A DNA stretch of 64,000 bases from the NCBI RefSeq assembly GCF_000025325.1, contig NC_013743.1, positions 3,224,001-3,288,000 of the forward strand. The letters are read 5' to 3'. Under the pieces are notes generated by a model. That model ran no database searches. It saw only the letters and a program-made list of their open reading frames with translations, and was not told the origin of the DNA. Both the position numbers and the translations under genes were made by a program. Of the stretch, positions 58,131 to 61,738 are shown one piece after another. The stretch is from Haloterrigena turkmenica DSM 5511 (GTDB taxonomy: Archaea > Halobacteriota > Halobacteria > Halobacteriales > Natrialbaceae). Numbering within the stretch: position 1 is the first letter of the stretch; the number at the start of each line of letters is the position of its first letter.

Positions 58131-59141
58131 ATGACATCACAACAGCGGCCGGAGCGCTCTCCCGAGTATCCCCTCGAGTGCGATCACTGCCACTATCCGA
58201 TCCCCAGCGAACCCGAGGAAACCGACGACGGGCAGTTCTGTTCGACGGCCTGTCTCGAGGCCAGCGAGGACGACGAGGACGAGATGCCCGATCCGAGCGC
58301 GTACAAGCGCATCGTCACGGGCGTCGAACCCCTCGATTCGCTGATTCCCAACGGCGTCCCCGCCGACTCGTTCGTCTGTCTCTCTGGCACGGCGGGGACC
58401 CGTCGGAGCGAACTGCTGACCGAACTCGTCTGGCGCGCCATCGAGCGCGGCGAGCCGGCCGTTCTCGTGACCGCGACCACGCCGCCGGCGGCGGTCCTCG
58501 AGCGCTTCTTCGAGAACGGCTGGAACGTCCTGCCGGCCCTCGAGGACGACCGCCTCCGGCTCGTCGACTGCTTCACCCACCGGCTCGCCGACCGCGACGC
58601 GTTCCGCGACCACCGGGGCGAGTGGATCGAGTTCGTCGGCGAGGCCGCCGCCGACTCGATCGTCCCGATCGAGGAGCCGACCGACGTCGAACCGATCCTG
58701 CGCGAATGCAACGCGGCGCTCGACGACCTCGAGATGACCGAGACCGGACTGGTCGCGATCGATTCGCTGAGCGAACTCGGCCGCGGCCTCGAGACGGACC
58801 ACGTCCACGAGTTCGTCACGGAGACGCGGGCGACGGTCTGCAAGGCGCGGTACGTCCCGATCTTCGGCGGCTGGACGGCCGGCGACGAGGGCGTCGCGAT
58901 GGACGAATCGATCTTCGACGGCGTCGTCGACCTTCGGCTGGCCGATCACCTCGAGCCCGACACGCGACTCCGGCAGCTGGGCGTCCGGAAGCTGACCGGC
59001 GCCCGCTACCTCCCCCAGTGGATCACCTACGAGTACGAACCGGTCCGAGGACTGGTCGCGTCCGTCGTGGAGTCCGCCGGACAGGCGACGCCCGGTGGGC
59101 CGCCGTCACGAGAGATGCAGGGCGTTCGGGAGCGGCGCTGA
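58131..59141 (+). CDS. RecA/KaiC-superfamily protein with N-terminal zinc knuckle, degenerate P-loop
   Basis: 336 residues. N-terminal zinc motif Cys17, Cys20, Cys37, Cys41, then a RecA-fold core of the kind called KaiC- or HTR-like in haloarchaea (VTGVEPLDSLIPNGVPADSFVCLSG at 62-86, RELLVDCF-type strand, TGLVAIDSLSELGRGL as Walker B-like at about 205). The P-loop reads SGTAGTRRSE: GxxGxGK(S/T) is lost, with Arg-Arg at the Lys position. Thus ATP binding by the usual lysine is doubtful, and it may be a pseudo-ATPase or bind nucleotide differently. The Q-rich repeat protein gene follows 175 bases on. Confidence 0.8.
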   Translation: MTSQQRPERSPEYPLECDHCHYPIPSEPEETDDGQFCSTACLEASEDDEDEMPDPSAYKRIVTGVEPLDSLIPNGVPADSFVCLSGTAGTRRSELLTELVWRAIERGEPAVLVTATTPPAAVLERFFENGWNVLPALEDDRLRLVDCFTHRLADRDAFRDHRGEWIEFVGEAAADSIVPIEEPTDVEPILRECNAALDDLEMTETGLVAIDSLSELGRGLETDHVHEFVTETRATVCKARYVPIFGGWTAGDEGVAMDESIFDGVVDLRLADHLEPDTRLRQLGVRKLTGARYLPQWITYEYEPVRGLVASVVESAGQATPGGPPSREMQGVRERR

Positions 59142-59173
59142 CACGTTCGGGCACGGACACGCTAGCGCGCGCT

Positions 59174-59184
59174 TTCCTTTTATC
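59174..59184 (+). promoter_or_regulatory. Possible TATA of the Gln-rich repeat protein gene
   Basis: TTCCTTTTATC about 135 bases before the ATG at 59317; the long leader would be unusual here. Alternatively the gene is read through from the KaiC-like gene. Confidence 0.3.
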
Positions 59185-59316: not shown

Positions 59317-61218
59317 ATGAACGATCGATACGACCGCGACCGACGAGACCGAGGCACCGACCGCTCGAGCGACGCCGAGCGAGACGATCGGTATCGCGAG
59401 TCCGAGGGGCGACAGCACCACGACGACCGCGGCTGGGTACACGGACTCTACAGCCGCGGCGGCAGCGAGGAAACGGGTGCGAACGGCCCGTCTCGAGGCG
59501 ATTCCGAGGAGGCTTCTCGAGGCCGATCTGAGGAGTGGCACAGTTCGGAGGAAGACGTCCGCGGGACCGCCGGCGAACCGGACTACGGCCGACGCTCCGC
59601 CGGCGGTGACCGCCAGCAGGGTCGCCGCGAGGAGGCCGGTCGCGGTGAGCGAACGCAGCGCGAACAGCAGGGCCGTGAGATGAGCGGCCAGCAGGGCCAG
59701 CGCGGACAGCCCCAGCGGAATCGGGGCGGCCGAGACCAGCAAAGCGGGTTCGAGACCGACGCGATCCGAGAGTCGAACCTTCAGTACGGCGGCGAGGCGC
59801 GCCACGAGCGCCAGCAGTCTCAGCCACAGGGCGGGCAGCGTCCCCAGCAGATGGGCGACCAACAGCGTCGGAGCGGTCAGCAGGGCCAGCCCCAACAGCG
59901 CGGCCAGCAGGGCCGCCAGCGAATGGGCGAACAGCAGCACGGGCAGCGTGGCCAGCAGAACCAACGGATGGGCGGTCGACAGCGCGGCCAACAGGGACAA
60001 CGCAGCCGGGAGGACCGTCAGGGAATGGGCGAGCGACAGCGCGGGCAACAGTCGCCACAGCGCGGGTCTCAGGAGTACGAACAGCGCGGTCAGCAGGGAC
60101 AGGCCCGCGAGCGAACCGGGCAGTACGAGCACCACGGCGGCTCCGAACAGTCCCGCCGCGAGCGACAGCGCCAGCCCGGGAGCCAGTTCGAACCCGACGT
60201 GAGCGACGACGCGGACCTCGAGTACGGCGGCGAAGCGCGTCGGCGACAGAGCGGCGCCCAGTCGCAGCCCCCCGGTGGCCGGCGGGAACAGCGCGGCCAA
60301 CAGCGCCAGCAACAGACCGGCGGTCAGCAGCGTCGGCAACAGACTGGCGGTCAGCGAGGTCACCAAGGGACGGGCGAGCAGCGCGGTCACCAAGGAATGA
60401 GCGGCCAGCAGAATCGCCAACAGACGGGCGGCCAACGCGGACGGCAGACGGGCGGTCAACAGCGCGGACGACAAGACCGCCAGCAGACGGGGCGGCAACA
60501 GGGCCAGCGCGGACAGCCCCAGCGGACTCGAGGCGGCCAATCCCAGCAGGGCCAGCAGAGCGGCTTCGAGACCGACGCGATTCGGGAGTCGAACCTCCAG
60601 TACGGCGGCGAAGCGCGCCACGAGCGCCAGCAGTCACAACCACAGGGCGGCCAGCAGCCCCAGCAGATGGGCGGCCAGCAGCCTCGACAGACGGGTGACC
60701 TGCAGCGTCGCCCCGACCAGCAGGGCGGGCGCGAACGCGGAATCAACGAACGAATGCCCCGCGGCGAGGCGGAGATGCAGGACCAACAGAACCAGCGGGA
60801 TCGCCGCGAGCGCGGCTATCGAGGCCAGCAGCAGGACCAGCGACGCCAGCGCGGCCAGCAAGGACGGGGGCAACAGTCCGATCGCGGTCAGAGCCAGTAC
60901 AACCAACAGAGCCAGGGCCAGCGCGGCCAGCAACACCAAGACCGACAGGGCCAGCCCCGCACTGGTCGCGAACAGCAGGGTGGCGGCCAACGGACCGGCG
61001 ACCGGAGCGATATCGGCTCCCCCGAGCAGTACCAGCCCGAGAATCGGTCCGGCGGCGGCCTCGAGCACCAGCCCCAGAGCCGGCGCTCCGAGCGGGGCGA
61101 CTGGACCGACGAACCGGAGTTCGACCGGGAGTACCGGAGCCCGAACGATCAGGAGTCCCGGCGCGCGGACGACCGCGGCGAGCAGGGCCACAACCGCGAC
61201 TGGAACCGCGACCGCTAA
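59317..61218 (+). CDS. Gln/Gly/Arg-rich intrinsically disordered repeat protein
   Basis: 633 residues, hardly any hydrophobic core. Residues 1-142 are Arg/Glu/Asp/Ser-rich with one GWVHGLYSRGG phrase; from 143 onward Gln, Gly and Arg dominate (QQGQRGQ, GGQQRRQQ). A head motif SGFETDAIRESNLQYGGEAR occurs at residue 143 and again at 415; a variant (SQFEPDVSDDADLEYGGEAR) is at 289. The C-terminus (580-633) is charged and Tyr/Asp-containing. Third positions are GC-rich and copies differ only synonymously, so the frame is truly coding. No known family; basic and neutral residues are odd in a haloarchaeon. It may scaffold or phase-separate. Confidence 0.75.
   Translation: MNDRYDRDRRDRGTDRSSDAERDDRYRESEGRQHHDDRGWVHGLYSRGGSEETGANGPSRGDSEEASRGRSEEWHSSEEDVRGTAGEPDYGRRSAGGDRQQGRREEAGRGERTQREQQGREMSGQQGQRGQPQRNRGGRDQQSGFETDAIRESNLQYGGEARHERQQSQPQGGQRPQQMGDQQRRSGQQGQPQQRGQQGRQRMGEQQHGQRGQQNQRMGGRQRGQQGQRSREDRQGMGERQRGQQSPQRGSQEYEQRGQQGQARERTGQYEHHGGSEQSRRERQRQPGSQFEPDVSDDADLEYGGEARRRQSGAQSQPPGGRREQRGQQRQQQTGGQQRRQQTGGQRGHQGTGEQRGHQGMSGQQNRQQTGGQRGRQTGGQQRGRQDRQQTGRQQGQRGQPQRTRGGQSQQGQQSGFETDAIRESNLQYGGEARHERQQSQPQGGQQPQQMGGQQPRQTGDLQRRPDQQGGRERGINERMPRGEAEMQDQQNQRDRRERGYRGQQQDQRRQRGQQGRGQQSDRGQSQYNQQSQGQRGQQHQDRQGQPRTGREQQGGGQRTGDRSDIGSPEQYQPENRSGGGLEHQPQSRRSERGDWTDEPEFDREYRSPNDQESRRADDRGEQGHNRDWNRDR
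59743..60678 (+). repeat. Three internal modules with conserved heads
   Basis: Heads begin at 59743, 60181 and 60559. The first and third are nearly identical over more than 90 bases, differing only at third codon positions; the middle one is diverged. Between heads run low-complexity Gln/Gly/Arg codons (CAG, GGC, CGC). Confidence 0.8.
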
Positions 61219-61312: not shown

Positions 61313-61738
61313 ATGAGCGAGAGCGGTACCTACGTGCTCGTCGTCGACGTCCCGCGAGCGACGACCCTCGAGGTCGGCGCGCTGGGCGAGCGCGAGTTCC
61401 CAGCCGGCGCTTACGCCTACGTCGGCAGCGCGTTCGGTCCCGGCGGCTTCGGCCGGATCGACCGCCACCGGGAACTCGCCCGCGGCGAGCGCGACACGCG
61501 ACACTGGCACATCGATTACCTGCTGGGCCACCCCGGGACGACTCTCGAGAGCGCGATCGCGTTCCCCGACGACGACCGGGAGTGCGAACTCGCGGCGTCG
61601 CTGCCGGGCGAGCAGGTCGACGGCTTCGGGGCCTCGGACTGCGACTGTTCGGGGCACCTGCTGACCCCTCCGAGCGCCGACGCTGCGGTCGTTCGCGAGG
61701 CAGCTCTCGCCGAAGGCGGTCGCCCCTACTTCGAGTAG
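61313..61738 (+). CDS. DUF123 (GIY-YIG-like) protein
   Basis: 141 residues from ATG 61313. Pattern SGTYVLVVDVPRATTLEVGALGEREFPAGAYAYVGSA is that of DUF123, a GIY-YIG-like nuclease-fold domain often fused to or near endonuclease III. Further motifs: RHWHIDYLLGH, CELAASL and GASDCDCSGHL with Cys pair. Function uncertain. Confidence 0.82.
   Translation: MSESGTYVLVVDVPRATTLEVGALGEREFPAGAYAYVGSAFGPGGFGRIDRHRELARGERDTRHWHIDYLLGHPGTTLESAIAFPDDDRECELAASLPGEQVDGFGASDCDCSGHLLTPPSADAAVVREAALAEGGRPYFE

Follow-up and report, generated by a model that had tools for sequence, protein, structure and literature searches.

A disordered Gln/Gly/Arg-rich motif protein of haloarchaea with a possible linker or scaffold role

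The window, i.e. the whole 64,000-nucleotide stretch of DNA that was analyzed, comes from the genome of Haloterrigena turkmenica DSM 5511 (5,440,782 bp in 7 contigs, with a main contig of 3,889,038 bp). It carries a gene for a protein rich in glutamine, glycine and arginine (hereafter the motif protein), located between the genes of a KaiC-like ATPase and a DUF123 protein. The features distinguished at this locus are listed below.

58131..59141, plus strand: KaiC/RecA-like ATPase, upstream neighbour (Pfam PF06745, E 4e-14; synteny)
59156..59183, plus strand: putative promoter element, a degenerate TGCACGC[GT]AAC[GT]C[AG]CGCTC followed by a TATA-like box (conserved upstream of the gene)
59317..61218, plus strand: disordered Q/G/R-rich motif protein, 633 aa, ATG start (ORF and start conserved in congeners; dN/dS 0.16-0.37; AF2 pLDDT)
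59422..59463, plus strand: N-terminal motif DDRGWVHGLYSRGG (family form DRGWLHGLFSRG), recognized by GW[LV]xG
59743..59835, plus strand: head 1, SGFETDAIRESNLQYGGEARHERQQSQPQGG, the first of two identical 31-aa heads
60181..60243, plus strand: head 2, diverged, SQFEPDVSDDADLEYGGEARR, between heads 1 and 3
60559..60651, plus strand: head 3, 31 aa identical to head 1
60742..60780, plus strand: INERMPRGEAEMQ motif, which some family members have as [RW]PRGExE (aligned congeners and relatives)
60853..60858, plus strand: junction of an in-frame deletion of ~34 aa (six-congener alignment, motif table)
61045..61110, plus strand: C-terminal module RSGGGLEHQPQSRRSERGDWTD (A2 alignment; invariant G, G, L, R, E, W)
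61207..61218, plus strand: tail-loss junction, 165 bp (55 codons) missing (DNA comparison with L031-L034)
61313..61738, plus strand: DUF123 (PF01986), syntenic downstream neighbour (Pfam, synteny)

The preliminary description of this DNA had claimed a 633-residue Q/G/R frame with three modules, and both the ORF and all three heads were found. The start codon is backed by conservation of MNDR in relatives, and the frame was confirmed as a genuine H. turkmenica gene. The opposite reading, a chance GC-rich open frame with repeats and no gene at all, could point to a 446-aa antisense frame over the same stretch, as is usual at 64% GC. However, the frame, start, motifs and promoter are conserved across many genera, and nucleotide changes fall mostly in third codon positions. 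A chance frame or junk repeat was rejected on the basis of dN/dS, synteny and the existence of homologues, and we leave it a vanishingly small probability.

Heads 1 and 3 are identical in 31/31 residues, although 8 codons differ, all of them synonymously; the earlier reading of the sequence had this pattern right and undercounted the silent codons (about seven). As 21 of the 93 sites are synonymous, a naive calculation gives a probability of 7e-6 that all eight changes would be silent. In a six-congener codon alignment dN/dS was 0.16-0.19 against three close congeners and 0.31-0.37 against two more distant ones. In every pair the heads evolve more slowly than the spacers, at 0.045-0.10 versus 0.15-0.22 for the close congeners; for L035, the most distant congener, the values come close to each other (0.28 and 0.34). 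Relative to L031, changes at the three codon positions number 16, 42 and 100, the third position having most. These comparisons support purifying selection on the protein sequence. The claim that a selected protein rather than junk repeat is encoded here thus holds with respect to dN/dS and to the homologues, which do exist and in which non-synonymous changes are not dominant, but it does not extend to the large Q/G/R region, which is not the selected core.

At the 3′ end of the gene (61042-61218, about residues 570-633), synonymous divergence from congeners is ~0.14-0.20 versus ~0.35 elsewhere in the gene. This might reflect constraint at the nucleotide level, but codon make-up is a confounder that may account for it (Asp, Arg and Ser codons at the 3′ end, Gln codons elsewhere).

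The 633-aa protein contains 22.4% Q, 18.0% R, 17.7% G and 15% D+E, while lysine and cysteine are absent (0% each). With a pI of 10.8 and a GRAVY of -2.32 it stands among six neighbours of pI 4.3-4.6 and 0.7-2.7% Gln. The preliminary description called it Q-rich, basic and low in hydrophobic residues; the pI and the extreme hydrophilicity agree with this, but “basic” applies only mildly, as the net charge is no more than ~+19 with 33% charged residues. The protein is a charge-balanced polyampholyte and not strongly basic. Throughout the family arginine makes up 16-25%, lysine is almost absent (20 K in 13,161 residues), glycine ranges over 12-20% in all members with a GRAVY of ~-2.3, and the net charge of orthologues lies between +1 and +32. 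Two syntenic forms (L120 and L178) are short, rich in Asp/Glu and devoid of heads and tail, and judging by these the sign of the charge is not conserved in the family.

An arginine-rich, almost lysine-free protein of high pI amid acidic neighbours might bind RNA or DNA in the manner of low-complexity RG/RGG-box proteins, in which case the arginines of RG dipeptides would contact nucleic acid, the spacers would provide flexibility and the motifs would be accessory. RG dipeptides are indeed enriched in the window protein (32 vs 20.4 in shuffles, z 3.1; similarly in L031, L036 and L126), whereas RGG triplets are not (3 vs 3.6 expected). The low net charges and the Asp/Glu-rich forms, among which positive charge is not conserved, argue against such a role; moreover, weak electrostatic interactions are further screened in molar salt. 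We therefore consider nucleic-acid binding unlikely.

Comparison of 24 orthologues revealed a constant order of short motifs. From the N-terminus these are MNDRxDxDRR, DRGWLHGLFSRG, 0-3 heads of the form FxTDA..NLxYGGEAR, RxPRGExE, GRHQRSQGF (or GFQRGHERR), GGGLxYxxxxxRxExGxWTE and, at the C-terminus, DEDMSNRRHVHExDPT, the family tail being DEDMSNRRHVHE. Individual orthologues may miss some of the motifs, but the order is the same throughout the 24. The GW[LV]xG pattern occurs in 18/24 orthologues, where composition-preserving shuffles would give 0.05, and 23/24 orthologues have one head or more. Head motifs were counted 44 times across the set versus 0.32 in such shuffles, a descriptive figure and no independent test, since the patterns were chosen from the same sequences and all orthologues but the window copy had been selected in part for their RRHVH tail.

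The Q/G/R-rich stretches between the motifs are free to vary in length. The length of orthologues at the locus runs from 86 aa, in a form without repeats, up to 759 aa, and recent tandem expansions are visible as a GQQGQPQQR-type array in L034 and an HQQGQQGQR array in L043. The shortest orthologue (L185, 86 aa) has no Q/G/R repeat and keeps only MNDRHDDRRDR, RDESGDWTE and SDEDVSNRRHVHHG. Considering this repeat-free form, the Asp/Glu-rich forms and the variable spacers, it is the set of short motifs that is conserved and not the bulk composition.

A profile search with the C-terminal module detected the family in 53/125 Natrialbaceae genomes, representing 15/29 genera. Searching 61 genomes with the head gave matches in 15, all within the same family; the weakest of them (G019, E 0.09) is probably due to chance. 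The closest relative in one scan of the GTDB collection was Haloterrigena salina. At ~27 loci the gene order is conserved: egsA, epimerase, KaiC-like ATPase, motif-protein gene, DUF123, CMD and glutamate synthase (gltB). The window copy lies between the KaiC-like/epimerase genes and DUF123 as in the rest of the family, and it possesses both the FxTDA..NLxYGGEAR heads and the GGGLxY..WTE module.

The KaiC-like gene is missing at four loci (L038, L041, L126 and L120) where the motif-protein gene is still present; the two therefore do not form an obligate pair, and functional coupling between them was rejected as weak. The window ATPase (58131-59141) has an N-terminal cysteine-rich, treble-clef-like stretch (CDHCHYP..FCSTAC) followed by a degenerate KaiC domain. 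On the downstream side, syntenic DUF123 matches are partial or in two pieces in seven genomes (G002, G029, G069, G103, G106, G114 and G129), which suggests repeated decay of this gene in several relatives. The motif-protein gene itself was not found in 72/125 genomes of the Natrialbaceae, and closed-up sites are seen in which either the KaiC-like gene (L187, L191) or the epimerase gene (L186, L188) adjoins DUF123. The lack of the gene in over half of the genomes, together with these closed-up sites, indicates that the gene is evolutionarily dispensable. In L183 (5342-5620) there is a remnant of the gene with the promoter element and an unclear start, apparently a decaying copy.

The gene carries its own conserved putative promoter element. 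Its family form is a 19-bp element, a few bases and then TTTTATCCGC; the window version is degenerate, and its TATA-like box, TTTTAT, is located 139 bp ahead of the ATG, at 59178-59183. The element precedes the gene in 23/25 gene-bearing loci (it is weak in L121 and missing in L176) and is also present in 4/4 short or remnant forms, while none of 14 gene-less loci, five of which are without synteny and less informative, has the element with a TATA-like box. It has the look of a site for a dedicated activator or of a special promoter. A regulon sharing the element was considered and rejected: the strict pattern has a single match genome-wide, and the relaxed pattern gave 27 matches, scarcely above the control (18), with the best match inside an ABC permease gene.

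Two in-frame losses distinguish the window copy. At 60853..60858, five of five congeners carry SQQGFQRGHERRNEAR-type sequence and other genera carry GRHQRSQGF. At the 3′ end, the 165-bp gap lies between CGCGAnCGC micro-repeats seen in relatives, and the missing 55 codons, present in all five congeners, include the DEDMSNRRHVHENDP tail. The window copy thus lacks the C-terminal DEDMSNRRHVHE tail, the most strongly conserved part of the family, and its orthology rests on synteny and on up to 90% identity. Both losses may be genuine in this strain or may have arisen from misassembly at repeats. As the tail is missing, the H. turkmenica copy is probably altered or weakened in the role that the tail plays.

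These losses, the span of 86-759 aa at a single locus, the tandem arrays and the absence of the gene from many genomes might all be expected if slippery Q/G/R repeats of little function had been added to a small ancestor that bore motifs at its N- and C-termini, leaving a largely inert low-complexity expansion. The spacers, however, still show dN/dS of 0.15-0.22 with close congeners, and the heads lying inside the repeats are identical despite 8 silent changes and are retained in nearly every orthologue. We regard an inert expansion as rather improbable.

Structural and database comparisons were also made for the 633-aa protein. Prediction of disorder had been proposed in the preliminary description, and two approaches gave the same answer. 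AlphaFold2, run with a 21-sequence alignment, returned a mean pLDDT of 41.8 and a pTM of 0.20, with no residue at or above 70, and in a charge-hydropathy plot 24/24 orthologues fell deep in the disordered field; the protein is accordingly predicted to be fully disordered. It matched no Pfam, NCBIfam, PHROG or PADLOC model and no PDB sequence. A phage or plasmid origin was rejected, as there was no match among phage and plasmid records and no PHROG, and so was membership of a defence system, for which PADLOC gave no match. Searching the literature for Q-rich or disordered haloarchaeal proteins yielded nothing about the motif-protein family.

Disorder, a promoter of its own, 12-20% glycine and a GRAVY of ~-2.3 would also suit a hydrophilin or LEA-like protectant, a hydrophilic Gly-rich disordered chain that would shield proteins or the cytoplasm when cells dry out or meet osmotic shock. 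Hydrophilins are defined by composition, namely high glycine and high hydrophilicity (PMC4190154), and the window copy falls within this definition. On the other hand, motifs that are invariant and stand in a set order, NRRHVH and GGGLxY..WTE among them, are not required of a bulk protectant, nor would the 86-aa form without Gly/Gln repeats then be retained at the locus. A protectant role consequently seems doubtful to us.

The head profile also matches Q-rich proteins in f17 g45, which belongs to another family of the order and is probably Haloarcula judging by genome type, and in f4 g57. Like the motif protein, the Haloarcula-type (L115, L117, L119, L161-L167) and f4 (L116, L118, L168) proteins are Q/R/G-rich and have an LxYGG[ED][AS]R[HR] core, and the N-terminus of the Haloarcula-type proteins, M[SN][ND]xxYR, resembles that of the family. 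They differ in having other neighbours, no NRRHVH tail and motifs of their own (SPEQVExEVKxRMQGGE, PSPQQSHQQ and ETYSQQVEN). Comparison of the Natrialbaceae and Haloarcula-type head profiles gave a probability of 95% and E 4e-8 over 14 columns. By this likeness the proteins are probable distant relatives, although short biased sequences could also converge. Upstream of the Haloarcula-type genes in L117 and L161-L167 there is an extremely conserved leader, CTAGCCAGCAC[CG]GATAAG..CTCGC, ~50 nt before the ATG, which is unlike the Natrialbaceae element.

Fixed short peptides within a very soluble disordered chain of free length fit a linker or scaffold. The motif proteins constitute a genuine, selected and hitherto undescribed haloarchaeal family, predicted to be disordered. 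We hypothesize that they work as a multivalent, motif-bearing linker or scaffold, a tentative proposal that we hold at somewhat less than even chances and rank first; a nucleic-acid binder of RG type, a hydrophilin-like protectant and a largely inert expansion each receive about half its weight. The preliminary description had named a scaffold or condensate-former, a suggestion that is still speculative. Every short motif (head, GGGLxY..ExGxWTE module or DEDMSNRRHVHE tail) would act as a grip on either a folded partner or another motif. The charge-balanced Q/G/R spacers would maintain the solubility and flexibility of the chain in molar KCl and determine how many grips there are and how far apart they lie. 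Several grips acting together might then gather partners into an assembly or condensate; motif binding, the joint action of grips and assembly or condensate formation are what we infer from the arrangement of the chain. Counted in favour of the linker reading are the constant motif order, the slower evolution of the heads, their 0-3 copies, the disorder, the own promoter, the synteny, the presence in 53/125 Natrialbaceae genomes and the LxYGGEAR core kept by a probable relative in another haloarchaeal family. Counted against it are that no partner can be inferred from the neighbours, the KaiC-like gene being missing at some loci, that the gene is dispensable and that the type strain is without the tail. 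With L176 and L185 among the orthologues that have at most a single head, multivalency of the heads cannot be the whole function.

If the distant relatives are taken together with the Natrialbaceae proteins, a broader class might be envisaged: lysine-free, charge-balanced Q/G/R scaffolds of condensates or assemblies for molar KCl, with conserved sticker peptides and a docking tail, in at least two haloarchaeal families. We consider this broader proposal unlikely at present. The usual haloarchaeal protein is acidic, folded and adapted to salt, and the family is a contrasting case of selected, disordered and Arg/Gln-rich proteins with conserved, presumably docking, peptides. It may serve as a test case for how disordered scaffolds could function at molar salt, which screens interactions between charges. 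An elastic low-complexity body is clearly set apart from fixed motifs, down to a minimal form of 86 aa that occurs in nature, and the functional parts can thereby be tested directly.

Several known groups of disordered proteins can be compared with the family. Prion-like Q/N-rich proteins have few charged residues, and the 633-aa protein, with 2.2% N and a third of its residues charged, is not of this type. FUS/hnRNP-type RG/RGG-box proteins are likewise rich in Arg, Gly and Gln, disordered and RG-enriched; the motif proteins differ from them in having no folded RNA-binding domain, no RGG enrichment, high Asp/Glu and discrete conserved motifs. With hydrophilins and group 2 LEA proteins they share high glycine, extreme hydrophilicity and disorder, but they are Arg-rich, Lys-free and strongly conserved in their motifs, and match no family model. 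EPYC1 and CsoS2 are organelle linkers that carry short binding motifs in a disordered basic chain and a conserved C-terminal peptide. Unlike these, the family has no Rubisco or shell neighbour, but it resembles them in its disordered chain with repeated short motifs and in the conserved peptide at its C-terminus.
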